Source: a bacterium (lineage in GTDB: Bacteria; Patescibacteriota; Microgenomatia; Woykebacterales; RBG-16-39-9b). From it: DNA of 32,291 nt. Of this stretch, positions 14,552 to 31,621 are shown piece by piece. The stretch lies in contig JAUYID010000009.1 in assembly GCA_030704665.1 (NCBI GenBank), positions 128,163 through 160,453 on the forward strand, read 5' to 3'. The notes under the pieces are model-generated. The model was not told the DNA's origin. It was given only the letters and a program-made list of their open reading frames with translations, and ran no database searches. Positions within the stretch are counted from its first letter, which is position 1. Every line of letters starts with the position of its first letter. Made by a program: the position numbers and the translations under genes.

Positions 14552-15697
14552 ATGAAAAAAGATTACGGCAAATTAGCGCTTGAACAAACGAAAAAGACAA
14601 AAGGTAAGCTTGAGATTCGTTCTAAGGTTAATCTAGAGAGCAGAGAAGACCTCGCAACTGCCTATACTCCTGGCGTCGCCGCAGTTTCTAGGTTACTTGC
14701 AGAAAAGCCAGAACTGGCCTCCCAATATTCAATCAAAGCTAACTCAGTGGCTGTGGTTTCTGATGGCTCGGCAGTTTTGGGTTTGGGTAACATTGGTCCT
14801 TTGGGAGCCTTACCAGTCATGGAAGGGAAGGCGATCCTCTTCAAAGAGTTCGCCGGAGTTGATGCTTATCCAATCGTCCTTAATACTCAGGATCCTGATG
14901 AGATTGTTAAAACCGTCAAAAACTTAGCCCCTGGTTTTGGCGGAATTAATCTGGAAGACATTGCCGCCCCGAATTGCTTTTATATCGAAGACGAGCTACA
15001 AAATCTTGGAATTCCTGTTTTTCATGACGACCAACACGGTACTGCGGTAGTTGTGCTTGCTGCTCTAATTAACGCGGCTAAAGTGGTCGGTAAGGAGATG
15101 AAAAATTTACAGGTAGTTATTAACGGAGCGGGAGCAGCCGGACAAGCAGTTGCCAAAATTTTGCTTGGCTTCGGAGTAAAAGAGTTAATTTTAGTTGATT
15201 CTAAAGGGGCAATTTACACCGGACGAGGTCAGCTGGATCGTAACAAAGAAAAACTTGCGCAGCTAACTAACAAAGACAGGGTTGTTGGGCAACTGGATAA
15301 AGCGATCGCGGGTAAGGACGTTTTTATCGGAGTTTCCAAGGCGGGTTTGTTAACGCAGGGAATGGTTCGCTCAATGAATGAGGCGCCAATTGTTTTTGCG
15401 ATGGCCAATCCGAACCCAGAGATAGAGCCCGCTTTAGCTAAAAAAGCTGGTGCGGTGGTGGTTGGAACGGGAAGAAGTGATTTTCCCAACCAAATTAACA
15501 ATGTCTTGGCTTTCCCGGGAATTTTCCGAGGAGCCCTTGACCGAGGGGCCAAGAGGATTACCAAGGAGATGAAATTGGCCGCAGCCTTGGCTTTGGCTAA
15601 GGAAGTTGGCAGACCACACAGTGAGCAAATTGTTCCCTCACCCCTAGACAAAAAGGTTGCTAAAAAGGTAGCAGCTGCAGTTTACAAAGCAGCTTAG
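14552..15697 (+). CDS. NAD(P)-dependent malic enzyme
   Basis: Oxidatively decarboxylates malate to pyruvate. The start chosen is the ATG at 14552, preceded by AAAGGA; a TTG at 14525, directly after the ligase stop, would add 9 residues. The 381 residues are those of the short bacterial type. Seen: TAYTPGVA with the catalytic Tyr, SIKANSVAVVSDGSAVLGLG with the catalytic Lys, FAGVDAYPIVLNT, the metal-binding INLEDIAAPN and PVFHDDQHGTA, then the cofactor fold VINGAGAAGQAVAKILL and MANPNPEIEP. Its stop codon overlaps the convergent RibD-type gene by 4 bases. It probably links malate to pyruvate in a reduced metabolism. Confidence 0.95.
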   Translation: MKKDYGKLALEQTKKTKGKLEIRSKVNLESREDLATAYTPGVAAVSRLLAEKPELASQYSIKANSVAVVSDGSAVLGLGNIGPLGALPVMEGKAILFKEFAGVDAYPIVLNTQDPDEIVKTVKNLAPGFGGINLEDIAAPNCFYIEDELQNLGIPVFHDDQHGTAVVVLAALINAAKVVGKEMKNLQVVINGAGAAGQAVAKILLGFGVKELILVDSKGAIYTGRGQLDRNKEKLAQLTNKDRVVGQLDKAIAGKDVFIGVSKAGLLTQGMVRSMNEAPIVFAMANPNPEIEPALAKKAGAVVVGTGRSDFPNQINNVLAFPGIFRGALDRGAKRITKEMKLAAALALAKEVGRPHSEQIVPSPLDKKVAKKVAAAVYKAA

Positions 15698-16470
15698 TTT
15701 TCGACTTGGACTGATTGATAGAGTTCATTTGTTTCGGGGACGTAAAAAATAGAGAGTGGAGTTAGCTTTTTAAGCTCACCCTTTTTAAAAGTAGCCCCTT
15801 GTAAGAAGGTCTTGATGCCTTGGTTTTCTGATCCAGAAACGAGAGTGTAAGAAAGAGTTTGATAGATTTCATCAACAAGGCCAGCTCGGACAAATTCAGC
15901 TGCAATACTTGGTCCGCCCTCAAGTAAAAGCCTTTCAACCCCAAAGCGAGTGCGGATGATCTCAGCTAAAGCTTTGAAATCATTATCCGGAAAGGTGAAA
16001 ACTTTTCTGCCTGTCGCTTGAATTTTTTTGATATTAACTTTTGGAGCTGATTCCGAGACAAAAACGACCGCTTCGTAGTCAGGATTGTTAAAGAAAGCTT
16101 TTTTGAGAGGTAAATCAGCACCTTTTTTGGAAATAACTGCACCAATTGGGTGCTTACTGAAACCTTCTTTTTCTCTGATTGAAGAAAGTTCATCTCTGTC
16201 TACTTTTGGTTCTGAGCTAGAGAGACGTAAAGTTTCCGCTCCATTCAAAACCATATCGGCTCGGGTACGCAAGACTTTCATCAGGTATTTATCCAAGTTG
16301 CTACCCAAACCGGCTTCAGTTAAACTCAAATCATCTTGAGGTAAATTGACCTTGCCGTCAAAAGAGCTGACCATATTAATTCTCACCCCTGGCCTTTTCG
16401 AGGTTGCTTTTGGCCAGGGACGGGTCAAGTAAGCTCTAACTATTTCGTTGGTGGCTAAACGGATTTCCAT
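15694..16470 (-). CDS. RibD C-terminal-type reductase (DHFR fold)
   Basis: 258 residues from the ATG at 16470, preceded by AAAGG with a 5-base spacer. RPGVRINMVSSFDGKV and RTRADMVLNGAETLR are the start of the NADPH-dependent pyrimidine-reductase fold of RibD/RIB7, and RLLLEGGPSIAAEFVRAGLVDEI is its conserved closing motif. It likely reduces the ribosylamino-pyrimidine phosphate of riboflavin synthesis, but DHFR-like homologs of other function exist, and no deaminase domain or other rib gene is nearby. A TTG at 16524, 6 bases after an extended -10 box, opens the same frame and would add 18 residues (MSCQPKAASFLTK...); a terminator-like hairpin lies in that stretch. Confidence 0.85.
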   Translation of the reverse strand: MEIRLATNEIVRAYLTRPWPKATSKRPGVRINMVSSFDGKVNLPQDDLSLTEAGLGSNLDKYLMKVLRTRADMVLNGAETLRLSSSEPKVDRDELSSIREKEGFSKHPIGAVISKKGADLPLKKAFFNNPDYEAVVFVSESAPKVNIKKIQATGRKVFTFPDNDFKALAEIIRTRFGVERLLLEGGPSIAAEFVRAGLVDEIYQTLSYTLVSGSENQGIKTFLQGATFKKGELKKLTPLSIFYVPETNELYQSVQVEN

Positions 16471-16538
16471 TATTGCCTTTATTACTTTAGTTAAAAAAGA
16501 AGCTGCCTTTGGTTGGCAGCTCAAAAGTGAATTTTACA
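16471..16538 (-). promoter_or_regulatory. Leader with terminator-like hairpin before RibD-type gene
   Basis: On the minus strand TGTAAAAT (-10 box at 16531-16536) is followed after 6 bases by TTG, then GCTGCC-AACCAAA-GGCAGC and TTCTTTTTT (hairpin and U-tract, about 16491-16520), then AAAGG and the ATG at 16470. No other minus-strand gene lies upstream, so a terminator here can only act as an attenuator of this gene. The mechanism is inferred. Confidence 0.5.
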
Positions 16539-16608
16539 TTGGCTAGGTTAACACCAAAGACTCTCACTGTCAAAGCCCGGCCCTACTTGCTTTTATTTGA
16601 CTTTAATT

Positions 16609-16614
16609 TAAAAT
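16609..16614 (+). promoter_or_regulatory. -10 box of the EndoQ-like gene
   Basis: TAAAAT, with TTGCTT 16 bases upstream (16587-16592). The ATG at 16624 follows by 9 bases and has no SD. Confidence 0.55.
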
Positions 16615-16623
16615 CAACTAACC

Positions 16624-17904
16624 ATGAAATTTGTTGCTGATTTACACCTCCATTCTTCTTACGCACGCGCAACTGCAAAAAATTTAGATTTTAAAACCCT
16701 TTCTACTTGGGCACGTATCAAAGGCATCAACCTCCTTTCTTCAGCTGATTTTACCCATCCACTTTGGTTTGAGGAAACTAAGCGAATGCTTGTAGAGGAT
16801 GGAAGTGGTTTGTTTGATTTTGATGGTTTTAAGTTTATTTTAGGAGCTGAGTTAAGCAGTATTTTTAGTCAAGGAGGTAAACTGCGTAGAATCCACTCCC
16901 TGATTTATACACCTGATCTAGAAAGTGCCGAAAAGATAAACAAAGAACTATTGAAAAGAGGAGCGAAGCTAGCTAGTGACGGGCGACCGGTGGTTGGTTT
17001 ATCAGTAAGGAATTTACTAGAGATAATTTTAGAAGCAAACGAAGATTCAATCCTGATCCCGGCTCATGCCTGGACTCCTTGGTTTGGTTTGTATGGAACC
17101 AACTCCGGCTTTGACAGCATCAAAGAGGCCTTTGGTGATCTAGAGAAATATGTTTACGGGATAGAAACCGGACTTTCAAGTAATCCAGAAATGAACTGGA
17201 GAGTCAGGGATCTTGACCAGCGTTCAATTGTTTCCTTTTCTGATGCCCACTCGAGTGCAAAAATGGGTCGAGAAGTGACTATTTTTCAGGAGGAGCTTTC
17301 CTACCGAGGTTTACTAAGAGCCTTAAAAAACCAGAAAATCGAGAGAACTTTGGAGTTTTTTCCGGAAGAGGGAAAGTACCATTTTACCGGCCATCGCGCA
17401 TGTTTTATTCGTCACTCGCCGCACGAAACTGCTAAGCTAGGTTTGATCTGTCCGAGGTGTGGAAAGCCACTGACAATTGGTGTGATGCACCGACTTAGTC
17501 AGCTGGCCGAACAAAATAGACCCGAAGGTTTTTCTGATCCACAGCGACCAGGTTTTCAAATGATGGTACCCCTTTTGGAAATACTAGCTGAGGTGCTTGG
17601 CTCTCCGCCTGCCAGTAAAAAAGTAATGCAAGACTATCAAAACCTCATTAAAGAGTTCAAAAATGAGCTCAACATTCTTTTTGAGGTCAAAGAGGGAGAG
17701 CTGGAAAAAAACCACTCGCCTCGCCTCGCTCAGGCAATTGCTAAAGTTCGAAAAGGTGAGATTGTCATCGAGCCAGGTTACGATGGAATTTTTGGTGTCG
17801 TCCAGATCTGGCCGGATGAAAGAGTAGTAAAGAAGAAGATAGAGGCTCAAAGGCAGAAAATTACGGCTAAAGAAGAAACAAATCAAATAAGCCTTTTTGA
17901 TTAA
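16624..17904 (+). CDS. PHP-domain endonuclease Q-like protein
   Basis: 426 residues, the length of archaeal EndoQ (TIGR00375-type). The PHP metal site is visible in order: DLHLHSSYARA (His8, His10), SSADFTHP, LGAELSSIF, RRIHSLIYTP, IPAHAWTPWFGLYG and FSDAHS. A zinc-binding segment (HRACFIRHSPHET and LICPRCGKPLTIGVMHRL) and a helical C-terminal domain follow, as in EndoQ, which nicks DNA 5' of uracil, hypoxanthine or AP sites. The C-terminus ends in NQISLFD; a short QxSLF-like motif of this kind often binds the DNA sliding clamp, and EndoQ is known to work with PCNA. Specificity cannot be proved from sequence. The mRNA looks leaderless. Confidence 0.85.
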   Translation: MKFVADLHLHSSYARATAKNLDFKTLSTWARIKGINLLSSADFTHPLWFEETKRMLVEDGSGLFDFDGFKFILGAELSSIFSQGGKLRRIHSLIYTPDLESAEKINKELLKRGAKLASDGRPVVGLSVRNLLEIILEANEDSILIPAHAWTPWFGLYGTNSGFDSIKEAFGDLEKYVYGIETGLSSNPEMNWRVRDLDQRSIVSFSDAHSSAKMGREVTIFQEELSYRGLLRALKNQKIERTLEFFPEEGKYHFTGHRACFIRHSPHETAKLGLICPRCGKPLTIGVMHRLSQLAEQNRPEGFSDPQRPGFQMMVPLLEILAEVLGSPPASKKVMQDYQNLIKEFKNELNILFEVKEGELEKNHSPRLAQAIAKVRKGEIVIEPGYDGIFGVVQIWPDERVVKKKIEAQRQKITAKEETNQISLFD

Positions 17905-17911
17905 AAAAGAT

Positions 17912-17917
17912 TATACT
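17912..17917 (+). promoter_or_regulatory. -10 box of the 17927 gene
   Basis: TATACT, 9 bases before the ATG; no SD is present. Confidence 0.5.
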
Positions 17918-17926
17918 TAAGTAAAG

Positions 17927-18301
17927 ATGCCCAATCTAGCCGACCTTACTTCAAAAGCAAAAGAAAAGTTAACTCTCTCATCCAATGAAGAAGTAGTGGT
18001 TGCGGAAAAGTATGAAGGCAGTGATAAAGTCATTGCCTGTCTAGCCTACGTTTACTTTGTTTCGGCCGCGGTCCTTCTTCTTCGCCATGACAATTCTGAG
18101 TTTGTACGCTTTCATGCCAAGCAGGCCTTTGTTCTTTTAATTATCGCTTTGCTCGTTTTATTAATTGCACCTGGAACCTGGAAGTACGGTCTTAATGGGG
18201 CGCTTTTTTTGGTTGCTCTTTATGGAGCAGTGCGGGCTTTTCAAGGCAGAAGATGGACCGTTCCTTACTTTACAAGTATCGCCAACTCAATCGAGATTTA
18301 G
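17927..18301 (+). CDS. Small membrane protein, DUF4870/Tic20-like
   Basis: 124 residues. A soluble N-terminus of about 35 residues is followed by KVIACLAYVYFVSAAVLLLL-type hydrophobic helices (three in all) with the sequence SEFVRFHAKQAFVLLI between the first two. Short membrane proteins with an RFHAKQA-like motif are common in bacteria and grouped in DUF4870 or Tic20-like families of unknown role. The PAP2-like gene follows after 12 bases, so they are probably co-transcribed. Confidence 0.8.
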   Translation: MPNLADLTSKAKEKLTLSSNEEVVVAEKYEGSDKVIACLAYVYFVSAAVLLLRHDNSEFVRFHAKQAFVLLIIALLVLLIAPGTWKYGLNGALFLVALYGAVRAFQGRRWTVPYFTSIANSIEI

Positions 18302-18313
18302 AAAGGAAAGCAC

Positions 18314-18904
18314 TTGATCAAACAGACTGCTAAATTACTAAGTGCCTTTTTTGAGCCTTATACAGTAGCAACGGTGACTTTAATTTTTGTGGTGCAAAGC
18401 CTCAGAGCTCCCTTGAGCGAAAAGTTTGTTTGGCTTCTGACCGTCTTTTTCTTTGGTGCCTTGCCGCCAATACTGGTTCTTGTTTACGAAAAAAGAAAAG
18501 GCAAAATCAGCGATTGGTTTATTTCCAACCGAGCAGAGAGAAGAGATGTCCAACTCGCCTGGGTCTTCGGTGCAACGAGTGTCACTGCTCTGGCCCTGAT
18601 TTTTGATTTGCCTCGCACTCTTCAGGCTCTAAGTTTAACTTTCTTTTCCTTAAGTCTTGGTATGAGCGTGGTCAATTTTTATTGGAAGGTAAGTGTCCAC
18701 ACCGCGATGATTACTTTGGCGGTTTTAAGTATGGTTTTGATCTATTCGTCGAGTTGGGCCTTTCTTTTCCTCTTGATACTTTTCGTAGCTTGGGCGCGGG
18801 TTCAAGTTGGAGCTCACACTTGGTCCCAAACCAGCGGTGGTGTCTTTTTAAGCTTAATAATCACATATTTTTGGTTTAACTATTTTGGCTTGGCTACATT
18901 TTAA
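18314..18904 (+). CDS. PAP2-like membrane protein
   Basis: 196 residues from TTG with a good SD (AAGGAAAG). Five or six hydrophobic helices. The C-terminal part KVSVHTAMITLAVLS and ARVQVGAHTWSQTSGGVFLS matches the later PAP2 motifs (SxH-like and R-x6-H), although the first PSGH motif and the usual Asp of H-x3-D are altered (Gln here). Family members dephosphorylate lipid phosphates or polyprenyl pyrophosphates at the membrane. Activity is uncertain because of these changes. It forms a pair with the preceding small membrane protein. Confidence 0.75.
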   Translation: MIKQTAKLLSAFFEPYTVATVTLIFVVQSLRAPLSEKFVWLLTVFFFGALPPILVLVYEKRKGKISDWFISNRAERRDVQLAWVFGATSVTALALIFDLPRTLQALSLTFFSLSLGMSVVNFYWKVSVHTAMITLAVLSMVLIYSSSWAFLFLLILFVAWARVQVGAHTWSQTSGGVFLSLIITYFWFNYFGLATF

Positions 18905-18986
18905 TTTAAATATTCGCCAAGACAAAACAGTCGACGTCTATTTCGGACTGGCAACCTTTTAGATTCTAAGGACAGCTTAAAAATTT

Positions 18987-19020
18987 GCCAATTCAGTATT
19001 CTTAATTCATAATTCTAAAT
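18987..19020. repeat. AATTC-type short repeats
   Basis: A run of AATTC-like units (AATTCAGTATTCTTAATTC and so on) just before the next gene. Similar runs lie at 2678-2716 and, in frame inside mnmA, at 23115-23147. Confidence 0.4.
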
Positions 19021-19024
19021 TACA

Positions 19025-19471
19025 ATGTTGACCACTCCACATTTGTTAGTTGGTGCGGCAATTGGGGCTAGCCTGGGGCCAGAAAAAAGCCTTTTGGTTG
19101 TGCCAGTTGCTGGGGCTTCACACTTTGTTTTTGACTGGATCCCACACCTCATGGGCTTTATTGAAGTTGAAGATCTTGATAAAAAGGATGTTCTCTTTGT
19201 AGTCGGAGATGTGCTTCTCGGGGTCGGGCTACTTATGGTCCTTTCCTTGGGCAACACAAACTGGGAAATCCTTTGGATTGGAGCTTTGGCTTCGGTTCTG
19301 CCAGATTTTCATCATCTTGTCAAGGTAATCTTTGGTCCAGAGACACTAAAGAAATACACTAAGGCCCACCTAAAATTCCACTATCAGAAGGAAATGAACG
19401 TCATTACAGGTATGTCTACCCAAATAATCACCTGTGTGATTGCAACGGCCACTATTTTGCTCAAAAAATAA
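19025..19471 (+). CDS. Membrane protein with His/Asp-rich motifs, YdjM/DUF457-like
   Basis: 148 residues. TTPHLLVGAAIGASLGP at the start, ASHFVFDWIPHL, and VLPDFHHLVKVIFG match the arrangement of His and Asp residues in the membrane-bound metal-dependent hydrolase family (YdjM/DUF457). Three or four hydrophobic helices are visible. Function is unknown. The start ATG follows a CATAAT box (19008-19013) by 11 bases; no SD is seen. Confidence 0.72.
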   Translation: MLTTPHLLVGAAIGASLGPEKSLLVVPVAGASHFVFDWIPHLMGFIEVEDLDKKDVLFVVGDVLLGVGLLMVLSLGNTNWEILWIGALASVLPDFHHLVKVIFGPETLKKYTKAHLKFHYQKEMNVITGMSTQIITCVIATATILLKK

Positions 19472-19494
19472 AGTTCTGGAAAGAGCCTTTTTCG

Positions 19495-19523
19495 TTGACA
19501 AAGTGTACCTGAACAACTATAGT
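19495..19523 (+). promoter_or_regulatory. Promoter of the rhodanese-VWA operon
   Basis: TTGACA (19495-19500), 17-base spacer, TATAGT (19518-19523). A predicted start near 19530 gives a 70-base leader containing the short ORF at 19537. The arrangement is nearly the same as at 24432. Confidence 0.82.
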
Positions 19524-19536
19524 TTATCTTAGAACA

Positions 19537-19614
19537 ATGAGCTGCCCAAAAGCTTCTTACACCTCAATTATCACCACAACAAACTTTTCTGAAGCAAAAT
19601 GTTGGATTATTTAG
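19537..19614 (+). CDS. Putative 25-residue leader ORF (contains Pro-Lys-Ala-Ser)
   Basis: ATG 13 bases after the -10 box; the peptide starts MSCPKASYTS and stops at TAG 19612-19614, overlapping the next gene's start by 16 bases in another frame. A similar ORF (MFFLPKASPEQ) lies at the same place in front of the 24545 operon, and the bases CTGCCCAAA-GC-TCT are shared. It could be a translated leader peptide, or a conserved RNA element that merely looks like one. Confidence 0.45.
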   Translation: MSCPKASYTSIITTTNFSEAKCWII

Positions 19615-20237
19615 CAACACAGCCTCTCATAGCCTCGTTCTTGGTGATTATCATCGTTACCCTTGTCCTAGCCTTCGCTTTTCCAAGTTTGGTGAAAATC
19701 ACTGAGAATACTTTTTGGAACAATCTTTCCCACCAAGCGAGAAAGCTCAAAAGAAGACTTAAGGATCATCCAATCCAATCAACTATTATAGCTGTTTTGC
19801 TGGTTGTTGTTCTTGCTGGGGGTTACTACTTGTACCTGAGTTCCCAGAGCGTAATTTACTTATCAGGCAGTGAGCTTAAGTCAAGAAAAGCAAGCAATTT
19901 GCAAATTTTGGAAAAAGAAGGCGTGGGCGCCTCAAGAAAAGCTCAAATTTATTTACTTGATATTCGAAGTCGTGACGAATATATAGAAGAGTATATCTTG
20001 GGATCAGCAAGCTTACCGGCCGAAAGAGCTAAAAAAGAAGCTTACCCAATGGACAAAAAATACATCCTGGTGGTTTTTGGTAGCCAGAACAGGTTTGATG
20101 AAGCTAAAGAAACGGCTGCCGCGATTATCAAGAACGGGAAAGAAAGTGGTTACCAGGGAAATGTTTTTTTGATCAAAGACGGCTTTGAGGGTTTGAAGAA
20201 GGCTGGACTGAAAACAGCTAGAGGAGCTATTTACTAA
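19599..20237 (+). CDS. Membrane-anchored rhodanese-like protein without active-site Cys
   Basis: 212 residues. Two hydrophobic helices (about 10-32 and 60-82) are separated by a basic stretch, so the C-terminal domain lies on the same side as the N-terminus. Residues 95-205 have the rhodanese pattern YLLDIRSRDEYIEEYILGSASLP and ILVVFGSQNRFDEAKETAA; the loop that normally holds the catalytic Cys has no Cys at all. It is thus a non-catalytic rhodanese fold, perhaps a binding domain. Its stop overlaps the ATG of the VWA gene by one base, implying coupled translation and joint function. No SD is evident. Confidence 0.8.
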   Translation: MLDYLATQPLIASFLVIIIVTLVLAFAFPSLVKITENTFWNNLSHQARKLKRRLKDHPIQSTIIAVLLVVVLAGGYYLYLSSQSVIYLSGSELKSRKASNLQILEKEGVGASRKAQIYLLDIRSRDEYIEEYILGSASLPAERAKKEAYPMDKKYILVVFGSQNRFDEAKETAAAIIKNGKESGYQGNVFLIKDGFEGLKKAGLKTARGAIY

Positions 20238-22618
20238 TGAAAAAAACCCTTTTTCTGCGAATTATTATCGTTTTGTCTTTGCTTTTTAATTTTCTTTCCG
20301 GTTTCCCTTCGTCAAACCTGGAGCCTGTTCGTGCTCAGGAATCAGACCCTATCTGTCCAGAACCTCAACCAGTCCAAAAACTAGGGGAGTCAATACCACC
20401 TGGCAACGACCTTTTCCCTGGAAGCGATGTCAAAGTGACTTTGAGGGTTGAGGGTGGGTGTAGTCAGATCAGAACAGCAACAGATATTATTTTGGTTCTT
20501 GATGTGACTGGTAGTATGAACTTTCTTTGGGGTCCGTGTCCGATAGTCGGTGGAGTAACAAGATGCGATCTGCGACCAACCAAGCTTGATTCTGCGAAGG
20601 CAGCCTTAACGAGCTTTGTCAACAAAACCAACGAGGATAAAGGCGCGACCGATCCGGGAGATTACGTTGGTTTAGCTACTTATGCAGGCCCTACTACGTG
20701 TACTGGCAATGGCTTCGGTGGGTGTAAGGAAACAACTCTTTGCCCGTCCTTAACTTCCTGTGCTACCTTGGTTTACCCCATTTCAAATATGACCAATGCG
20801 AACAAAACCGCTCTTATCAACGCGATTAACTCTGTTACAGCCAAAGGTTCAACCACGATTGGTTCTGGGGTAAGAATGGGCAACGATGCACTCATTAACC
20901 GCAGGATAGCGGATGCAGCTATGATTCCTCCTCGTAGTGCCATGCAGGTAATGGTTCTGGCAACTGATGGAAATCAAAATACCGTACCAAGTCCTTTCGA
21001 GGCTGGAATTATGTCGACAACTATAAACCAAAAGTTTCTTGCCTTTTCTATTGGTATTGGAGATGATGCCAAAACCGCTAGCACCCCAATCGGAACCTAC
21101 TGCTCGGGTTGTCCGGACGGGATTTCCAGTGTGCAAATAAACCCAGATGGAAGGTCGAGCGGTGAAGAAGTGATGAAGGATATTGCTTGTCGAACTGATC
21201 AGATTGATCCTGATACGACAAAAAGATGCAACTTTTCAGACAAGGTAAATAAAGGGCCGGCTGTAAACAACGAGTACAACCCCCGGAACTATTTTTATGC
21301 GGCCGGAGATGCGCAGCTGACCACCATCTACAATACTATCATTGGTAGATTGCAGCTCCCCAGTAGCTATCTGATGTACGAAGCTCCAAATGTTTGTACT
21401 GTACCGGGTGACTCAACTTCGTGCAACAGCGGCGACTTATTCATCAGTTACTATTGGAACCCAAGTAGTGTCAAAATTGAGGATTGTAGTACTCCAGGTG
21501 TGCCATGGCCAACTGGAAAAGTAGTTTTAATTGGTCCCCGTTTCTTTTTCGTAGGCTTTACCAATGTACCAGTCGGCAAAACTGTTTGTGTTAGTTTTGT
21601 GGCCAAAATCAGAGACGACGATGCCTTCATCGCCCTACTTGCTGGTGACGAAGCGAACTTCGATTTAAACAACCCCAGGTCCAGGCTAGCAGCTGTTGAT
21701 CCTCGAAAGCCCGAATGCGACTATGTCTTTGAGTGTTTGAGGGATTTGAACTCTTCTCCGATCACAGATATAAACGAGGGTTCGGCAACGGTCAAAAGCC
21801 CAGCTTTTGGTTGGCTCAAGACTGATCATGGCAACGTTGGCTCTTTTACTGACATGCAGCTGAGGAGAAATCTTGCTATCGCCGACCCAACTGAACCCTA
21901 TACTTTATACAATACTGAATATCTCGGTATTAGTAATGGTAGTTTGAACAGCCCCCCAAACTACTTCTTCCGTTCTTTCAAAAAATGGGTCGTACCAAAC
22001 TACACGAACTTGAACGTTTATCCAAATGTTACGGTGGGTGGAAGTATTTATGACAAGCTTTTGGCTGACAGCGAAAAGCGCTGCGTGATAAACACTTTAA
22101 CAAACGATACTCCCGGAGCGGTGAGTTCCGCCGCCAGCGGGACCTGTAAAATTTCCCGTTACACTTCAGCTAGTTCCTTTGACATTGATTCGAGTTGGTC
22201 TTCAACCTACAGTGGTAACTCCTCGATCGTCTTTATCGAGAATGCAGACCTGCTTTTTTCTGAAGATTTGCGCTTAGCAGCTGGTAAAGGCTTGATTTTT
22301 GTAGTCAAAAAACAAATCCGCATCGTCAATGACGGAGCCGATCGTATTGATGCCGTTCTCATTTCCGATGGACAGTTTATAAGCAGCCGCACTTCCTGCA
22401 CTACCCCAAATGTTACTTCAGACCCGCTCACCGTAAATGGAGCAATTTATGTCTTTGGTAGTCGTGCTGCCGGAGAAAACGCTGCTTGTTTCAACCGAGT
22501 CTTGACTAACAACTTTACTGACCCTTCAGAGATTATTAACTACGACCCACGCTATCTTTACCTCTTTCGAGAAATAATCGGCAACTCTCGGCCGGTTTAC
22601 TCTGAGCTCGCCCCTTGA
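20237..22618 (+). CDS. Large secreted VWA-domain surface protein
   Basis: 793 residues with a signal peptide (MKKTLFLRIIIVLSLLFNF..., cleavage probably near VRAQ). The VWA domain (about 80-300) has the MIDAS motif DVTGSMN, the Thr in GSTTIGSGVRMG, and LATDGNQN, so a metal-dependent adhesive site is intact. Many Cys residues suggest disulfides. A linker domain follows, then from about 560 a C-terminal module beginning YLGISNGSL and KKWVVPNY, with strand-rich repeats (GLIFVVKKQIRI, IDAVLISDGQF, LTVNGAIYVFG) and the end INYDPRYLYLF...YSELAP. The 1346-residue protein at 25045 has a related C-terminus ending KELSP. Its job is probably in surface attachment. Confidence 0.88.
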   Translation: MKKTLFLRIIIVLSLLFNFLSGFPSSNLEPVRAQESDPICPEPQPVQKLGESIPPGNDLFPGSDVKVTLRVEGGCSQIRTATDIILVLDVTGSMNFLWGPCPIVGGVTRCDLRPTKLDSAKAALTSFVNKTNEDKGATDPGDYVGLATYAGPTTCTGNGFGGCKETTLCPSLTSCATLVYPISNMTNANKTALINAINSVTAKGSTTIGSGVRMGNDALINRRIADAAMIPPRSAMQVMVLATDGNQNTVPSPFEAGIMSTTINQKFLAFSIGIGDDAKTASTPIGTYCSGCPDGISSVQINPDGRSSGEEVMKDIACRTDQIDPDTTKRCNFSDKVNKGPAVNNEYNPRNYFYAAGDAQLTTIYNTIIGRLQLPSSYLMYEAPNVCTVPGDSTSCNSGDLFISYYWNPSSVKIEDCSTPGVPWPTGKVVLIGPRFFFVGFTNVPVGKTVCVSFVAKIRDDDAFIALLAGDEANFDLNNPRSRLAAVDPRKPECDYVFECLRDLNSSPITDINEGSATVKSPAFGWLKTDHGNVGSFTDMQLRRNLAIADPTEPYTLYNTEYLGISNGSLNSPPNYFFRSFKKWVVPNYTNLNVYPNVTVGGSIYDKLLADSEKRCVINTLTNDTPGAVSSAASGTCKISRYTSASSFDIDSSWSSTYSGNSSIVFIENADLLFSEDLRLAAGKGLIFVVKKQIRIVNDGADRIDAVLISDGQFISSRTSCTTPNVTSDPLTVNGAIYVFGSRAAGENAACFNRVLTNNFTDPSEIINYDPRYLYLFREIIGNSRPVYSELAP

Positions 22619-22698
22619 AGAAAATTAAGAGTTCAAACTCAAGCTACTTCTAAAACCACCACTCCACCCACAAACACTAGATAGCAACGACAATTTTT

Positions 22699-22706
22699 GC
22701 TAAAAT
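22699..22706 (+). promoter_or_regulatory. Extended -10 box of mnmA
   Basis: TGCTAAAAT-type extended -10; TAAAAT is 22701-22706, 9 bases before the ATG. No SD is present. Confidence 0.6.
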
Positions 22707-22715
22707 CCTTCGGTC

Positions 22716-23843
22716 ATGAGGAGAAAAGTAGAAAAAAATAAAGAGCCAAGCAAGCGTGTCCTTGTGGCAATGAGTGGAGGAGTGGATAGCTCGGTAGCTG
22801 CCGCCTTGCTCCAAAAACAGGGCTACCGGGTTGAGGGCGCCTACATGCAGTGTTGGAGTAGCGGTCCCTATTGTTCGACTGAGAAAGATCGGTCTGATGC
22901 GCTTCGAGTTGCAACTCAACTAGATATACCTTTCCAGGTTTTCGATTTCGAGAAGGAGTACAAAGAGGCAGTTCTTGATTACTTCTTCGCGCAGTACCAA
23001 GCTGGCCGAACTCCAAATCCTGATGTTGCTTGCAACCGAGAAGTAAAATTTGGAATTTTTCTTCACAAAGCCTTAGAGCTGGGTTTTGATTACATCGCGA
23101 CCGGACACTACGCGAGAATTCAGAATTCAGAATTCAGAATTAGAAATGTCCCATTGGGAAAAATTGAGTTCAAAAAAACTTACAAGTTACTAAAAGGGGT
23201 TGACCCTGCCAAGGATCAATCGTATTTTCTTTATACCTTGGGGCAAGAACAACTCAAACACACTCTTTTCCCGATTGGGGAGTACAGGAAAAAAGAGGTT
23301 CGGGAGATCGCTGGGAGCTTGGGTTTGGTGGTTGCAGACAAAAAAGATAGCCAGGGGATTTGCTTCATTGGACCGGTGAATGTAGCAAGTTTTTTACGAC
23401 AAAATCTTAAAACTAGACTCGGAGATGTTGTCAGTCTGAATGGAGAAGTGCTTGGTAGGCATGATGGTTTAGCTTTCTACACTATTGGCCAGAGAGAGGG
23501 GATAAGAATCAGTTCTAGCCTCCCTCATTACGTCGTCAGAAAAAAAATAACAAGCAATGAGCTTGTGGTCGCCCCAATTGGCTCTGAGGCAATTTATTCA
23601 TCCCAAGCTCAAATCACAAATCTGACTTTTGTCGCCGACGAAAAGCCCAAGCTACCCCTAGCCTGTCAGGTAAGTTTGCGCTATCGACAAGAGCCCCAAG
23701 ATTGTCGGCTTCGCGAAGACGCCAAGCAGACCTACAGCCTCGACTTTAAAAACCCCCAGCGAGCGGTCACAGAGGGACAAGCAGCGGTTTTCTTTGTTGG
23801 GGAGCAAGTCCTGGGTGGAGGAGCTATTGAAAAAACTTTCTGA
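22716..23843 (+). CDS. mnmA: tRNA-uridine 2-sulfurtransferase MnmA
   Basis: Thiolates U34 of Lys, Glu and Gln tRNAs, using ATP and a sulfur relay. The 375 residues show the PP-loop SGGVDSS (20-26), PNPDVACNREVKF with catalytic Cys106, TGHYARI, DQSYFLYTL, DSQGICFIG with Cys216, and a C-terminal beta barrel (RYRQEPQDCRL). The segment after GHYARI (IQNSEFRIRNVPLGKIEF, about 135-152) is longer than usual and is coded by AATTCAGAATTCAG repeats, apparently an in-frame repeat insertion in a variable loop. The sulfur donor is not in the window. Confidence 0.96.
   Translation: MRRKVEKNKEPSKRVLVAMSGGVDSSVAAALLQKQGYRVEGAYMQCWSSGPYCSTEKDRSDALRVATQLDIPFQVFDFEKEYKEAVLDYFFAQYQAGRTPNPDVACNREVKFGIFLHKALELGFDYIATGHYARIQNSEFRIRNVPLGKIEFKKTYKLLKGVDPAKDQSYFLYTLGQEQLKHTLFPIGEYRKKEVREIAGSLGLVVADKKDSQGICFIGPVNVASFLRQNLKTRLGDVVSLNGEVLGRHDGLAFYTIGQREGIRISSSLPHYVVRKKITSNELVVAPIGSEAIYSSQAQITNLTFVADEKPKLPLACQVSLRYRQEPQDCRLREDAKQTYSLDFKNPQRAVTEGQAAVFFVGEQVLGGGAIEKTF
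23115..23147 (+). repeat. In-frame AATTCAG tandem repeat inside mnmA
   Basis: Three and a half copies of GAATTCA-like units that code for the loop IQNSEFRIRN. They are similar to intergenic AATTC runs at 2678 and 18987. Confidence 0.6.
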
Positions 23844-23918
23844 GGGTGCTACGATTCCACATCAGAGTTAGTTGTTATAAAAAGTAATATAAAATAGTAG
23901 AAAGACCGGTTAAAGCAG

Positions 23919-23924
23919 TAAAAT
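23919..23924 (+). promoter_or_regulatory. -10 box of the 23931 gene
   Basis: TAAAAT, 6 bases before the ATG; no SD is present. Confidence 0.5.
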
Positions 23925-23930
23925 ATCAAA

Positions 23931-24368
23931 ATGCTAGCTTTTATATCAGAAGCCTACAGAAATATAACAATTTTCCACCCAAGTTTTTGGTTTAGTTCAA
24001 GAGTAAGTGTTCGTCTTGATCAGCTCTATATTTATATTGCCTTTGTGCTCGTTTTGCTTGGTTTTAGTATTTTTTTCTTGATCCTAAGCAAACTCAGAGA
24101 CAATCCTTTTCTGCGGAAATTTTATTCGAAGCTGTCCTGGATTATATTTACCTTTGGTTTTGTCGCCGCCCTTCTCTCCTTTTTTCGTCTTTTGGGAGCA
24201 GGAGCACTCTCGGCGCGGGGAGTTTGGATCCTTTTTTTCTTCGCCCTCTTTTTTGTGGGCTATCTGAGCCTGCTTGAGTTTTACAAAAAGATACCAGAGA
24301 AAACGTCTCACTACGAGACTGACCAAATCAAAAAACGCTACCTACGTCCCTTCAAGAAGCGAAAATGA
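23931..24368 (+). CDS. Small integral membrane protein, unknown
   Basis: 145 residues with three hydrophobic helices (about 33-55, 67-90 and 97-117) and a strongly basic C-terminus (IKKRYLRPFKKRK), which should lie in the cytoplasm. No family was recognised. It has its own -10 box and a terminator, so it is probably a single-gene unit. It stands between mnmA and the second giant-protein operon. Confidence 0.72.
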   Translation: MLAFISEAYRNITIFHPSFWFSSRVSVRLDQLYIYIAFVLVLLGFSIFFLILSKLRDNPFLRKFYSKLSWIIFTFGFVAALLSFFRLLGAGALSARGVWILFFFALFFVGYLSLLEFYKKIPEKTSHYETDQIKKRYLRPFKKRK

Positions 24369-24382
24369 AGTTCCCTTGGTTT

Positions 24383-24410
24383 TAAAGCCGCAGCTTTACA
24401 ATTTTTTCTT
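24383..24410 (+). terminator. Rho-independent terminator of the 23931 gene
   Basis: TAAAGC (24383-24388), tetraloop CGCA, GCTTTA (24393-24398), then CAATTTTTTCTT. Confidence 0.75.
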
Positions 24411-24431
24411 ATAAATAACTGTTTTTTAGAT

Positions 24432-24460
24432 TTGACATAGGTTGAAACTAAACCTATACT
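24432..24460 (+). promoter_or_regulatory. Promoter of the second giant-protein operon
   Basis: TTGACA (24432-24437), 17-base spacer, TATACT (24455-24460). The spacer region contains a dyad, AGGTT-N7-AACCT, that could be an operator. The region after the -10 box resembles the operon at 19495 (TTAGA before ATG). Confidence 0.85.
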
Positions 24461-24471
24461 TTTAGTTAGAC

Positions 24472-24552
24472 ATGTTCTTTCTGCCCAAAGCCTCTCCAGA
24501 GCAAATATCCTCTTTTAGAAAAATTCAAAAATTCTTTTCCAACCATGGATAA
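24472..24552 (+). CDS. Putative 26-residue leader ORF (contains Pro-Lys-Ala-Ser)
   Basis: ATG 11 bases after the -10 box; the peptide starts MFFLPKASPEQ and ends at TAA 24550-24552, overlapping the start of the next gene by 8 bases out of frame. See the counterpart at 19537. Confidence 0.45.
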   Translation: MFFLPKASPEQISSFRKIQKFFSNHG

Positions 24553-25048
24553 GCAGATCTTTACCACTAAAAATTTTTTAAATTTAAATTTAGCTGATCT
24601 AAAGGAAAGATTTAACAAACCGAAATATTGGGGAGTGGCTTTTGCCCTTTTTCTTTTTTTGGGGCTCTCTCTTCTTGGTTTGGACTTTTACCTTTCTCAG
24701 ACAAAAAAAACAGCTGAAAGCTCACAAAGAGGGGAAAAAGTCTTTGAAAAACAAGACCCAACTACTTACTTTGAGGCAGTCTTTTTTGGTTACGACAGCG
24801 GCAAAGGAACAATCTTAGTTCAAGTGACCAAGAACGGTTTGTCGAGCCAAACCGAAGTAAAGGTAAATTCTACAGTTTCAGTTGAGCGGATTGTTTATGA
24901 AGCCAAAACTCAGCTCGTTAAATCAAAAACAAAAATTTCTTTAGCAGAGATTAAACCCGGTGAAAACGTTCGTTTGGTTGTCAAAAGAGCGGATACCAAG
25001 TTTGATTTCTCAACGTTGAAAGAAATTCAGGTGCTGGAGTCAAAATGA
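24545..25048 (+). CDS. Single-pass membrane protein, unknown
   Basis: 167 residues: a 35-residue cytoplasmic part, one hydrophobic helix (YWGVAFALFLFLGLSLLGLD, about 35-56) and an external domain of about 110 residues with alternating strands (GTILVQVTKNGLSS, EVKVNSTVSVERIV, KPGENVRLVVKRA). The domain is small and strand-rich; no family is recognised. Its stop TGA overlaps the ATG of the giant protein gene (ATGA), so translation is coupled and the two proteins probably act together, like the rhodanese-VWA pair. Confidence 0.78.
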   Translation: MDKQIFTTKNFLNLNLADLKERFNKPKYWGVAFALFLFLGLSLLGLDFYLSQTKKTAESSQRGEKVFEKQDPTTYFEAVFFGYDSGKGTILVQVTKNGLSSQTEVKVNSTVSVERIVYEAKTQLVKSKTKISLAEIKPGENVRLVVKRADTKFDFSTLKEIQVLESK

Positions 25049-28000
25049 GAGCATTAACTATAAATTTCAGAGCCAGCAAACTTCTTTTGAGACTGCTCAC
25101 TCTTGGTTTTTGTTTGTTGGCCTTTTTGCTTCTGGTTAGAGGCGCGCAGGCAGCACTCGTTACCAACACCATCAACCCGGACGACATTTTGAACGACCGA
25201 CCAGAAACTTTTCTGGGTAGTGATGGTTTTGTCCGGGCTATCTACCACGACAGCAACCAAAAAATAATCTATGTACAATGTCTCTCGGATATTTGTACGA
25301 CTTCCACCCGAACTGAGCTCAACATTGGTTCGGGAGTAGTCAACAACGGCAATGTCGTTGCTTACAAAAAAAGTGGTGGGGACTTGCGAATTTTTTTCAT
25401 CGCAACTGATGCGGGTGTGCACACTCTGCGCAGAATTGATTGCGATACGGCTGATACTTGTACCTCGGCCTCGGTTGTTTACACTTTCGGCAATTTTATC
25501 TTTGGTGCCCACGCTCTCTCGGTTGATAAAGACAGTAACAATCAGGCACGTTTTTTGATCACTCTGACTGACATTACCTCTGGAACTCCAGCTCAGAGAG
25601 TGGCTTTTTACTACTGTACTGGGGAGTGTGTTTCGGGTAGTGTTACCCAAAGTTTACTTTACGGAACTAGTTTCGCGGGGGCAGGTTTTTACGTTCCAAA
25701 AATCGTTATTTCGGCTGGAAACTTTCCGCTCCTTGCTTTTCAGCAGCAAACCACGACCACGGCTGGTCAAATGCGTTATGTTCAATGTACCGCTACCACT
25801 TGCTCAACTAGAGTCAACACCACCATCGAGAGCTATTCGGTGACCTCATCCATGATTATGGGTGTGGCTGATATGGTGATAAAGGGGGATAGCTTTCCGT
25901 TTATTGTCTACTCAAGAATTTTGGATGGTACTTTGGTTGGTAAGATAGTCACTTGTAGCAACGCTTCCTGTAGCAGCCGAACCTCAGCTGACATTACCAA
26001 TGGCAATATGCCACGTTTACTCAAGATGGGCGACAATACGCTGCGGGTTTTTTATCAGCTTAATTCTGCACCGACAGAACTGCACTACAAAGTTTGCTCT
26101 GCAAATGATTGTACGGGGGCAACCGATACTTTGATTGAGGCTTACAATTCAATTTGGCCTGGGCCTTTTGTCAATATTGGCGGTTTTCCGCAGGCGGTTT
26201 TCAACTCCAATCCAGGTGGGGGAATTGATTTGCGGATGGCTTGTGGACTGGAAGGTCCAGTCTGTCCTTCTCCAAACCTAGTGGTTCGTAACGCTGGGGC
26301 TGAGATGTCTCCAGCAATTACTTATACCAGCCCCGTCATCGTCAACACCAACGTGAACTTTACTTTTACCAATGTAAATGCTGGTCCAGGTGTTTCAGCT
26401 GACAGTGTGACTCGAGTGACGGTCGCTTGTGCCAGTCCGCCTTGTAGTACCAATGATGCGGAGAATATTACTATTAGTGGTATTGACCCATTCTCGGCAA
26501 GCCCAGTACAAACTTTTACGACCAATTTCAATACGACTGGTAGCTTTACCCTCACCTTTCAAGCTGACTACCAAAATGACAATTCTGAATCGAACGAAAC
26601 TGACAATAGTGTTTCAATCGTCGTCAACGTCTCCCCACCAGGGGTAGTGTCTTACACGATCTCTGTCTCACCCTCAGCTCGGGCGGTAGCGCAGGGAAGT
26701 TTTTACGACTACACCGTGACCGTCAATGTCACCTCTGGGGCTCCGGCGGCGATCAACCTAACTGCCAACGATCTGACTGGCAAAGGAATTACCCAAACCC
26801 TGACCCCAGCTAGTTTGGCGTTTGCTGCAAATGGGTCTCAGACGGCAAGTCTGCATGTTGTAGTTTCGTCAGGGACTTCACCAGACCCACCGAACAACCC
26901 CTATACACTGACAGTCAGCGCCACAGTTTCTGGTCTACCAAATTCGACTCAGTCAGCCAACACCAAATTGGGGGTGATAGCAGCGGGAACAGGACCCTGG
27001 TTGCAAACAACGGGTGGTGATTTGGGATCAAGGGGACCAATCACCCTGACTGTTCCTGCTAAAAAGTTTTTTCCCAATCCAGTCACACAAGATGGAACGA
27101 TTGAAAGTGACGGTGTAAATGGGATTTGCAGGGTCGGTTCCGGGAGTTTTGTTGGTCCGACTAATTCAATTACCGCTGGGAAGAATGGTGATAGATTTAA
27201 TGCTACTGGCTTCATTGGTTTTGATACTGCAAATATAGTTGGTAAAACTGTTGTTGGTGCTAAACTTACCCTAACGGTTAAAGAAAAGAACCTTGTCTTC
27301 TCTGCTACCGACTTTGACGTAACTTTGTATAAACAAAACTGGGGTCCAACTCTCGATCCAGGGTGTGGTCCCGGAACTGATGTGGCTAGTAATGGTGGTG
27401 TCGAAACACCACCCGGTCCGACTTTTAACACCAGTTCGATCACTGCAGCTGGGCAAAAAGTAATTATCAATTTAACTGATTTGTCTTGGATAAGTAGTTT
27501 TGCTAACGATGGCTTTACTGGATACAGAATTATTGGCGCACCTTCAGGTTTTACTGCCTTCGGTTATGTTGCTTTTTACCAGGCAGAAGAGGGTAGTCCC
27601 AATGCCCCAATTTTGGAAGTTGATGTGTCTGATTACTATACTCATACCGATTATTTGGGTATTTCCGAAAGTAGCATTGCCGCTGGTTTTTCTTCAGCCA
27701 AACGTTGGGTTGTACCAAATTACGCGAGTAGCAATATCAACTCAGTCGTGCCAGTGGGGCAGGATGTTTATAGCTATCTCTACGGTAAGTTTGGGGGAGA
27801 CAAGGCCACTGTTCTTGACCCAACTGCGATCTGCAGCCCACCCTCGACCTTTGGTTTTACTTCCTACGGCTTTCGCAACGATCTAGTTGGAAACAGCGGA
27901 GGCAACGCAACCAACTGTGTGCTAACAGATCTGAACGGCTCTGGAACGGCTCATTTAAATTTGTTTAGTTCGGGTGGGACAGTCGACAACGGGGTCTTTA

Positions 28001-29085
28001 TTTTCAAAGGAGATGGAACTCACAATGGGGACTTGACCTGGAGCGTGGCTGACCCCGACGGTGATGAGTACACTATCCCTTCTGGGAATCCGACCATAAT
28101 CTTCGTGACTGGAAACTTCTATATCAACACAGCGATCAGAGTTTCAAATAGCAAAAAGTTTATTTTCATCGTCAAAAACGATTCGAACAACGATGGTAGC
28201 CTCGATACGGATGATGCCATCCAAGTCAATCCTACGGTCAGTCGTTTGGACGGCTTTTTCCTGACTAGGGGTAAGTTCAACTCCTTCAAATGGATCAACG
28301 AGCGCAATCAGACCCGCTACGACCGCGCCCGCACGATTGAGGATAAAATAAAAGAGTATCGTGCCTTCAAAGGCAACTACCCACCCAGTTCTTCAAGCTA
28401 TGATACTAGTGACGGTTGTTCTTGGAACACGACTCCAACCAATTGGTGGTATGAACCAGTTGCCAGTGGTGGTTTGGGGCCAGTCGGAAATACCAACTGG
28501 GATGGAAAGACTAGTGGAGTAAACAATATTGCCGGCCCGTGTACGTCGGCGCAGGGTTTGAGGTATGAATTGAATCGAAATGATATATCAGGATATACAC
28601 CAATCGACATCAATTCCTACAAAGATCCAACCAACGGAACCGCAATTCCTGGGAAACCAGCTGTACCGAGACCAAAGAAATTTGCTCTGCGTTACGCTGG
28701 AATTGCGGTTGGTGGGTCTGCAACCGCCAACGCTTATGACATTTTCTTTTCTACCGAAGATGATGCTGGTGCTGACGGAGCCTCAACAGCACCCGACCCG
28801 GAGTTTCATATGTGTGGTGGAAATTACAACGCTTCTGACTCTTACTTGCGTAGTGAGTTTAGTCAATATTGTTATATCCATCGCTTGGTCGTCAACGGTG
28901 GTCTTTACGCTGAGGGTGGCTTTTCCTTGGGTAGGGATCTCCACGATGAAAACAACTCAAGCATTCCGACCCACCCCCCGACCCCGGCTGAGCAAGTTAA
29001 TCTCGATCCGGCCTTTTACTTCATTTTCGCCAAGACTAAATTTCTTGGTAGCCAAGGAACAATTTCTAAAGAACTCTCCCCCTAG
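25045..29085 (+). CDS. Giant secreted protein: seven-repeat propeller, CARDB, Ig-like, C-terminal module
   Basis: 1346 residues with a signal peptide ending near RGAQA. Residues 40-405 hold seven repeats of about 46-60 residues, each with a close Cys pair (CLSDIC, CDTADTC, CTGEC, CTATTC, CSNASC, CSANDC, CGLEGPVC), as expected of a disulfide-pinned seven-bladed beta-propeller. Then: a CARDB-like domain (about 407-532, PNLVVRNAGAEMSP, NESDNSV-like end), an Ig-like domain (536-642), a DNRLRE/CBM96-like domain (about 672-865, GFIGFDTANIVGKTVVGAKL), and the C-terminal module shared with the VWA protein (YLGISESSI, KRWVVPNY ... KELSP). The latter contains a pilin-like stretch (RTIEDKIKEYRAFKGNYPP, about 1090). 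Likely an extracellular adhesin or fibre protein. Confidence 0.87.
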   Translation: MRALTINFRASKLLLRLLTLGFCLLAFLLLVRGAQAALVTNTINPDDILNDRPETFLGSDGFVRAIYHDSNQKIIYVQCLSDICTTSTRTELNIGSGVVNNGNVVAYKKSGGDLRIFFIATDAGVHTLRRIDCDTADTCTSASVVYTFGNFIFGAHALSVDKDSNNQARFLITLTDITSGTPAQRVAFYYCTGECVSGSVTQSLLYGTSFAGAGFYVPKIVISAGNFPLLAFQQQTTTTAGQMRYVQCTATTCSTRVNTTIESYSVTSSMIMGVADMVIKGDSFPFIVYSRILDGTLVGKIVTCSNASCSSRTSADITNGNMPRLLKMGDNTLRVFYQLNSAPTELHYKVCSANDCTGATDTLIEAYNSIWPGPFVNIGGFPQAVFNSNPGGGIDLRMACGLEGPVCPSPNLVVRNAGAEMSPAITYTSPVIVNTNVNFTFTNVNAGPGVSADSVTRVTVACASPPCSTNDAENITISGIDPFSASPVQTFTTNFNTTGSFTLTFQADYQNDNSESNETDNSVSIVVNVSPPGVVSYTISVSPSARAVAQGSFYDYTVTVNVTSGAPAAINLTANDLTGKGITQTLTPASLAFAANGSQTASLHVVVSSGTSPDPPNNPYTLTVSATVSGLPNSTQSANTKLGVIAAGTGPWLQTTGGDLGSRGPITLTVPAKKFFPNPVTQDGTIESDGVNGICRVGSGSFVGPTNSITAGKNGDRFNATGFIGFDTANIVGKTVVGAKLTLTVKEKNLVFSATDFDVTLYKQNWGPTLDPGCGPGTDVASNGGVETPPGPTFNTSSITAAGQKVIINLTDLSWISSFANDGFTGYRIIGAPSGFTAFGYVAFYQAEEGSPNAPILEVDVSDYYTHTDYLGISESSIAAGFSSAKRWVVPNYASSNINSVVPVGQDVYSYLYGKFGGDKATVLDPTAICSPPSTFGFTSYGFRNDLVGNSGGNATNCVLTDLNGSGTAHLNLFSSGGTVDNGVFIFKGDGTHNGDLTWSVADPDGDEYTIPSGNPTIIFVTGNFYINTAIRVSNSKKFIFIVKNDSNNDGSLDTDDAIQVNPTVSRLDGFFLTRGKFNSFKWINERNQTRYDRARTIEDKIKEYRAFKGNYPPSSSSYDTSDGCSWNTTPTNWWYEPVASGGLGPVGNTNWDGKTSGVNNIAGPCTSAQGLRYELNRNDISGYTPIDINSYKDPTNGTAIPGKPAVPRPKKFALRYAGIAVGGSATANAYDIFFSTEDDAGADGASTAPDPEFHMCGGNYNASDSYLRSEFSQYCYIHRLVVNGGLYAEGGFSLGRDLHDENNSSIPTHPPTPAEQVNLDPAFYFIFAKTKFLGSQGTISKELSP

Positions 29086-29108
29086 TTAATTTGAACTTAA
29101 GGCCAGGC

Positions 29109-29137
29109 TTGACAAAGATAGTGTCTTGAAATAGAAT
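29109..29137 (+). promoter_or_regulatory. 16S rRNA promoter
   Basis: TTGACA (29109-29114), exact 17-base spacer, TAGAAT (29132-29137). It starts 24 bases after the stop of the giant protein gene. The predicted transcript start near 29144 gives a 520-base leader before 16S. Confidence 0.82.
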
Positions 29138-29189
29138 GAGCTGGCCCTTTGGATTTCTCTTTAATTAATCCTTCCGGGCAATCTATGTA

Positions 29190-29260
29190 AGTCTCTCTTT
29201 ACAGTAATTTCCTGTAAGACCAAGTGCGAAAGAGACTAGTTCACTAGGCTCTTTTTGTTT
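29190..29260 (+). promoter_or_regulatory. Attenuator- or nut-like leader of 16S rRNA, with terminator-like hairpin
   Basis: AGAGACTAG (29231-29239), TTCA, CTAGGCTCT (29244-29252) and CTTTTTGTTTGGG form an intrinsic terminator with one mismatch. It lies after the 16S promoter. Upstream AGTCTCT (29190-29196) can pair with AGAGACT (29231-29237) across a small hairpin (TTACAG/CTGTAA, 29199-29217), a competing fold. The GCTCTTT at the 3' arm also resembles a boxA. It may instead simply end transcription from the giant protein gene. Confidence 0.55.
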
Positions 29261-29333
29261 GGGAAGAGAAGCTTCGATTCGCACCTTGCCAACTTAATCA
29301 ATACAAATGTTTTTGTAGAGATTATTGAAGTTC

Positions 29334-29560
29334 TTCAAAATGTATACTTTGCTTTTGCAAAGACTGCATCTTGAGTTCCAAAATAAATAAACTTCTTTGC
29401 GAGCTTTGCTTACAAAGAAAGTTCATACTTTGCAAATTCAAAATGTAAACCCCGATGAAAAATCGGGGACTGCATTTGAGCTTTGTAAGCTCGAAATGTA
29501 GCAGGAACCCGATTTCTTAAGTTTTGACTAGCTTTTGAAATCGAGAACCGCAATTCAAAC
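29334..29560 (+). repeat. Modular hairpin repeats upstream of 16S
   Basis: Modules of the form AAAATGTA - variable short hairpin - ACTGCAT occur at 29337-29368 (inner hairpin ACTTTGC/GCAAAG) and 29438-29476 (inner hairpin CCCCGAT/ATCGGGG), joined by TTTGAGC...GCTCGAAATGTA palindromes. They are inverted relative to those downstream of 16S and could pair with them to make the precursor processing stem. Confidence 0.65.
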
Positions 29561-29663
29561 CAAATTAGTCAGATCAAACAATTCGATTTTGAGTTCGATT
29601 TATCGAACAAGAAATATCGTGCCTAAGTTAATTTATTAATTTAGAGCGTTATTTTTATCGAAA

Positions 29664-31246
<1,583 letters not shown>

Positions 31247-31576
31247 CTTTTTTTGAAACATAAAAAAGATAATAGGGAGAAATCTGGAAGTAGTTCTTCC
31301 AGCAGTTCGCCAATTCACGAAACGGCGAACAGGTCAGCCCCACTGACGAGTTCAGTGGGAAGATTGCAGTTCTAGTTCTTGCTACATTTTGGGTTTGCAA
31401 CGCAAATACAAAATGCAGTCTTTGCGCAAGCAAAGTATACATTTTGAGATTGCAAATCTCGAAACGCAGTCGTTCCCGAAAGGGAAGGTTTACATTTTGA
31501 GCTTGTAAAGCTCAAAATGCAGAGTTTGCTTTTGCAAATTCTACATTTGATTAGTCAATGGGTAACATCCCGCCAG
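31247..31576 (+). repeat. 16S trailer: successive hairpins and modular repeats
   Basis: Hairpins GGAAG/CTTCC (31286-31300), GTTCGCC/GGCGAAC (31304-31330) and CCCACTGA/TCAGTGGG (31339-31359) are followed by four modules (31383-31418, 31411-31445, 31467-31498, 31516-31552) of the TGCAT - hairpin - ATGTA type, inverted relative to the upstream set. The module at 31411-31445 is almost an exact reverse complement of 29337-29368. No protein gene was seen here. Confidence 0.65.
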
Positions 31577-31580
31577 AAAG

Positions 31581-31606: not shown

Positions 31607-31621
31607 GGGTAAAATAGGCAA

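Follow-up and report, generated by a model that had tools for sequence, protein, structure and literature searches.

Short ORFs and a CTGCC motif at probable leaderless starts of surface-protein operons in Woykebacterales

Two operons for giant surface proteins lie in the 32,291-nt stretch of bacterial DNA analysed here (the window), and in each a short open reading frame (ORF) stands between the promoter and the first gene. What are these short ORFs, and do the two leaders have an element in common? A preliminary description had proposed a shared leader peptide containing Pro-Lys-Ala-Ser, or a shared RNA element, that controls surface-protein expression. The features concerned are collected in Table 1.

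Table 1. Features of the two surface-protein operons and of the region before the RibD-type gene (window positions)
Feature	Position	Strand	Remarks
Terminator-type hairpin, outside the element	16500..16522	-	8 bp stem; fold z -2.76 against shuffles
Operon 1 promoter, TTGACA-N17-TATAGT	19495..19523	+	consensus match 11/12
Short ORF 1, MSCPKASYTSIITTTNFSEAKCWII then stop, 25 codons	19537..19614	+	ATG 13 nt past -10
CTGCC core within CTGCCCAAAAGC, locus 1	19542..19546	+	18 nt past -10
Operon 1 first gene, membrane-anchored rhodanese-like protein, 212 aa	19599..20237	+	without Shine-Dalgarno sequence
Surface protein, 793 aa, vWA domain; carries the family's C-terminal domain	20237..22618	+	
Operon 2 promoter, TTGACA-N17-TATACT	24432..24460	+	
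Short ORF 2, MFFLPKASPEQISSFRKIQKFFSNHG then stop, 26 codons	24472..24552	+	ATG 11 nt past -10
CTGCC core within CTGCCCAAAGCC, locus 2	24481..24485	+	20 nt past -10
Operon 2 first gene, 167 aa, one likely membrane anchor	24545..25048	+	without Shine-Dalgarno sequence
Surface protein, 1346 aa, CARDB domain; C-terminal domain common with operon 1	25045..29085	+	

The C-terminal domain common to the two giant proteins was present in 213 of the 374 genomes of the class. It ends in ...(E/D)PRYL.LFR..IG....Y.E.AP in both proteins (20237-22618 and 25045-29085) and class-wide, and it has the look of a tail dedicated to sorting or anchoring. A GTDB scan with the single rhodanese protein of operon 1 gave no match, and a scan with a rhodanese alignment gave only Candidatus Woykebacteria bacterium GWB1_45_5 (G001) and distant rhodaneses.

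The promoters of the preliminary description were present and correctly placed at both operons, and they were the top two among 25 promoter-like matches in 15600-32291. They are of the ordinary type, as found also at 29109-29137, where a third TTGACA-type promoter lies upstream of the 16S rRNA and the rRNA operon. The short ORFs, likewise, were found 11-13 nt past the -10 boxes as described. ORF 1 overlaps the main ATG at 19599 by 16 nt and ORF 2 the main ATG at 24545 by 8 nt (ATGGATAA), both out of frame. An end close to or overlapping the main start is one of the marks of a leaderless short ORF or 5'-terminal AUG leader.

The string CTGCCCAAA was indeed common to both leaders, at 19542 and 24481, followed by AGCTTCT and GCCTCT, respectively. 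On its own, the likeness between the two leaders was marginal (local score 13, shuffle p 0.044); a local score of 11 was reached by 161 of 1891 leader pairs within the same genome. The 16-base leader pattern matched the genome 14 times and its reversed control 8 times, which is no enrichment.

Neither leader folded better than its shuffles (z 0.18 and 0.27), and neither short ORF contained a run of regulatory codons or of one amino acid. No terminator-like site was listed in either leader and no attenuator hairpin was seen. A search of the window against Rfam gave only the 16S rRNA above the gathering score, leaving both leaders without a match. The tetrapeptide, which occurs in both short ORFs, speaks for a conserved peptide; these results spoke against a conserved peptide or folded RNA that regulates by stalling or attenuation.

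A third example had been proposed upstream of the RibD-type gene, where the letters MSCQPKAASF are indeed present. We rejected it, since these letters are those of a minus-strand hairpin, GAGCTGCC-AACCAAA-GGCAGCTT, followed by CTTTTTT; the ORF opened by the TTG extends RibD in frame and is not a separate leader. The start of RibD is more likely the ATG at 16470. The hairpin (16500-16522) sits on the RibD strand between a possible promoter and the gene, and is possibly an attenuator or the terminator of a short RNA. With this example reduced to a hairpin, the peptide proposal lost a further support.

Two copies of another leader, 85 nt long, were seen elsewhere in the same genome, after strong promoters at L031:1537-1621 (+) and L062:14423-14507 (-). 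They are nearly identical over the 3' half, and their folds beat the shuffles by far (z -2.8 and -3.8). Each has a 14-codon ORF that starts near the 5' end and ends in the CCAACTAAGTTGG hairpin. No Rfam match was found for this leader and at most a weak match in the relatives compared. It is a candidate structured RNA.

The homologous operons of relatives were then compared with the window loci. Six loci, from G001 (three operons), G003, G005 and G006, were selected by protein homology and not by motif; each genome represents a different genus of the family, and G001 is the closest relative of the window genome. In operon 1 of G001, the ortholog of gene 19599 starts 11 nt past the -10 box, that is, leaderless. 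The main ATG lies 9 nt past the -10 box in operon 2 of G001, 8 nt in its third operon (G001:C12), and about 10 nt in G003 and G005. Thus, in these three genomes the ATG at the position of the window's short ORF is the main gene's own start, and a separate leader ORF is absent, as there is no room for one between promoter and main ATG.

On the other hand, CTGCC was found shortly past the ATG in five of the relative loci (ATGGATCTGCCT, ATGGATCTGCCC, ATGAAGATTGCGAAGCTGCCG, ATGAGCCTGCCT and ATGCTGCCC). The homologous operon of G006 lacks CTGCC and opens with a different small ORF. This ORF (L023, minus strand, from the ATG at about 3371 downwards) is leaderless, has 34 codons and encodes one apparent membrane helix (MSEPAVDEQKKELLFYSVGTLALLFFVVILYFYI). 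The TTAGA before the ATG was dropped as a part of the element, for it is not common to all relatives.

The preliminary description had named the absence of a PKAS-like ORF or of CTGCCCAAA upstream of homologous operons as what would speak against it. Because the relatives have no room for a leader ORF, the peptide part of the proposal fell; no such ORF precedes the homologous operons of the four sister genera. The CTGCC part of CTGCCCAAA stood, as a nucleotide core beside a leaderless ATG. Conservation of a Pro-Lys-Ala-Ser leader peptide is not supported, and a stalling peptide or folded RNA, largely refuted, now appears very improbable. What is common to the window and its relatives is, on this comparison, apparently a start signal and not a leader peptide.

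The position of ATGs relative to promoters was examined in an unselected 588 kb of the family. Past the -10 boxes of 135 promoters, ATGs peaked at 5-15 nt, and none was present at 16-20 nt. Such a peak is the signature of leaderless starts, and leaderless initiation is, judging from this spacing, common here. The ATGs of the window's short ORFs (13 and 11 nt) fall inside the genome-wide peak, which suggested an AUG near the transcript 5' end at both loci. In a larger set of 194 promoters, to which searches for promoters and for the motif had also contributed loci, 39 are followed directly by an ORF of 60 codons or more, and 19 by a near ATG with a short ORF alone, about the level given by the ATG background.

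CTGCC was located 13-23 nt past the -10 box, just downstream of the ATG, in five of six homologous loci and both window loci (7/8 together). Among 5000 sets of eight drawn at random, none had a 5-mer common to seven members. Within 10-29 nt past the -10 box, the motif occurred in 5/6 homologous relatives against 7/91 other leaderless genes (p 7e-5) and 17/666 other promoters (p 1.4e-7), values that are somewhat flattering, as the relatives' -10 boxes were chosen by eye and the -35 box of G003 is weak; the background came from sampled stretches of genomes. The likeness of the two window leaders is made significant only through the relatives and, as far as these sequences indicate, only for CTGCC.

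The motif was also enriched across the order. Downstream of TTGACA promoters in ten whole genomes, 52 CTGCC sites were found at +10-24, compared with 18 at +45-59 and with 21 sites of the reverse complement GGCAG at +10-24. This is an enrichment of about 2.5-3 times over two controls, in which the effective numbers are smaller since the 52 sites include some orthologous sets. The sites peaked 13-15 nt past the -10 box. Beyond the order, the class gave a mild excess, at least 89 at 10-24 against at least 49 at 25-38 among the matches listed. In homologous operons of other families of the class, CTGCC was present in only 1 of 31 promoters, and the link to surface operons is therefore at the family level. 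As to a pairing of CTGCC with 16S rRNA, which we rejected, the complement GGCAG occurs at four sites in the 16S rRNA, none near the 3' end. One orthologous promoter of G001, G005 and G003 (L138, L143 and L150, respectively) has a conserved GATAGT just past the -10 box and CTGCC downstream; it precedes a gene of about 222 aa (VTLQDYINLSQ...).

Does the motif act through its bases or through the amino acids that it encodes? Among the 52 order-wide sites, the 21 with a preceding ATG showed no frame preference (8/9/4), and 31 had no preceding ATG, placing the motif in untranslated leaders as well. Six of the seven surface-operon cases have CTGCC as Leu-Pro in the frame of the ATG. For this Leu the relatives always use CTG, a codon that accounts for about 10% of their Leu codons. 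Short ORF 1 retains the bases in another frame (Cys-Pro). The mixed frames, the 31 sites without an ATG, the constant CTG codon and the different frame of short ORF 1 together favour CTGCC as a signal at the level of nucleotides rather than peptide. The six in-frame cases may nevertheless have a protein-level or ancestral cause.

A nucleotide signal could also be read from DNA. CTGCC would then be a site in the initially transcribed region, or a regulator's operator, that co-regulates surface-protein promoters without a role in translation. The sites lacking an ATG, the peak at 13-15 nt and the mild class-wide excess are all compatible with such a site. In the surface operons, however, CTGCC always follows a leaderless ATG. 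An operator of five bases alone would also be short, and the flanking sequence showed no conservation. We consider a purely DNA-level site improbable.

We interpreted the two window loci as leaderless translation-start modules, in which the short ORFs would hand ribosomes to main genes without Shine-Dalgarno sequences. A sigma-70-type promoter places the expected 5' end of the transcript a few nucleotides before an ATG, as for many genes of the family, and CTGCC lies within about 15 nt of that 5'-proximal ATG. In the sister genera, this ATG is where the first, membrane-anchored gene of the operon begins; the window genome has it open instead the 25-26-codon ORF that ends 8-16 nt inside the main gene. 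On the proposed reading, ribosomes would load at the AUG of the 5' terminus, pass through the short ORF and start again at the main AUG that it overlaps. The short ORF would thus serve for ribosome entry, and the sequence of its peptide would matter little. CTGCC would be a nucleotide signal, located within the first 15 nt or so of the mRNA or in the DNA of the initially transcribed region, and would either help leaderless initiation or co-regulate the class of surface-operon genes. Both the role of CTGCC and the coupling are putative parts of this reading.

Alternatively, CTGCC may be real and the short ORFs accidental, with the main genes translated independently from their own ATGs. The near-chance frequency of promoters with a short ORF alone (19/194), the lack of conservation of the leader ORFs in relatives and the marginal similarity of the two leaders are as expected from accident. 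Against it, both ATGs fall in the leaderless peak, where the relatives begin their first gene, and the two short ORFs each stop no more than 16 nt from the main ATG. The missing Shine-Dalgarno sequence at both main ATGs was not accepted as proof of coupling, since it is also missing from 10 of the 17 genes with long 5' UTRs. As short-only ORFs occur at about chance frequency and many long 5' UTRs are without a Shine-Dalgarno sequence, we put the leaderless module with a coupled short ORF at a probability of about 0.45 only, and we regard accidental ORFs as unlikely, though with a real share of the probability.

The short ORFs might also encode the real N-termini of the first genes and be linked to the main frames by a frameshift, either through programmed slippage or through one-base assembly errors in A runs. 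The start of short ORF 2 resembles those of the relatives' first genes (M..LP: MDLP, MSLP, MLPR and MKIAKLP), a -1 slip at A_AAA (19596-19599) would fuse short ORF 1 to the main ATG, and no stop codon interrupts the frame of the second main gene as far back as 24470. However, one locus would need a -1 shift and the other a +1 shift, and neither contains a known slippery heptamer. Alignment of the gene 1 ortholog requires no extension beyond about six residues, and the other genes of the window look intact. A frameshifted N-terminus is judged improbable, less likely than either coupling or accident.

The leaderless-module reading has a more far-reaching form. CTGCC would be a new recognition element of mostly leaderless mRNAs in the order, mainly those of large surface-protein operons; the window genome would carry it on detached leaderless mini-ORFs that feed ribosomes to the main genes. 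We put this forward as a doubtful proposition.

The start of translation in Patescibacteria has hardly been described, and no literature on leaderless mRNA in these bacteria was found beyond a passing mention. Leaderless starts, on the present data, seem to be a main route in the family, with surface-protein mRNAs apparently marked at their 5' ends by a short motif. Both would bear on the annotation of gene starts and on surface-protein expression in these probably host-dependent cells. If functional, CTGCC would offer a simple system in which to test sequence signals of leaderless initiation. A separate observation on gene starts concerns the second formamidopyrimidine-DNA glycosylase gene of the window, which has an apparent ATT start at 2821-2823 (+) (AAGGAGG-AATT-ATT CCG GAA TTA CCA GAA GTT, IPELPEVE). 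Automated calling would therefore begin this gene too late, at GTG 2890.

Short ORFs with a 5'-terminal AUG that affect the downstream gene are known from E. coli and mycobacteria (PMC9031893). In Escherichia coli leaders such as that of ptrB (Beck and Janssen 2017, cited in PMC9031893), a short frame begins with an AUG at the 5' end, distinct from the main start, and this AUG affects how the gene just downstream is translated, which resembles the arrangement proposed here. The organism and gene are unrelated, however, and no CTGCC is known there as far as the cited passages go; the window's short ORFs overlap the main start, and their mechanism is putative.

In mycobacteria, polycysteine leaderless short ORFs precede operons (Canestrari et al. 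2020, cited in PMC9031893) and are thought, according to the passages cited, to affect the downstream genes. Their Cys runs sense cysteine by attenuation, whereas the window loci have no amino-acid run, attenuator hairpin or conservation of the ORF. Downstream CA repeats, which enhance translation of mRNAs both with and without leaders (Martin-Farmer and Janssen 1999, cited in PMC9031893), are like CTGCC a short nucleotide motif just past the start codon of a leaderless mRNA; the window sequence is a different one and its effect putative. By analogy with these systems, the window elements would be functionally of the same kind as 5'-terminal AUG leaders, and CTGCC and the taxonomic setting would be new.
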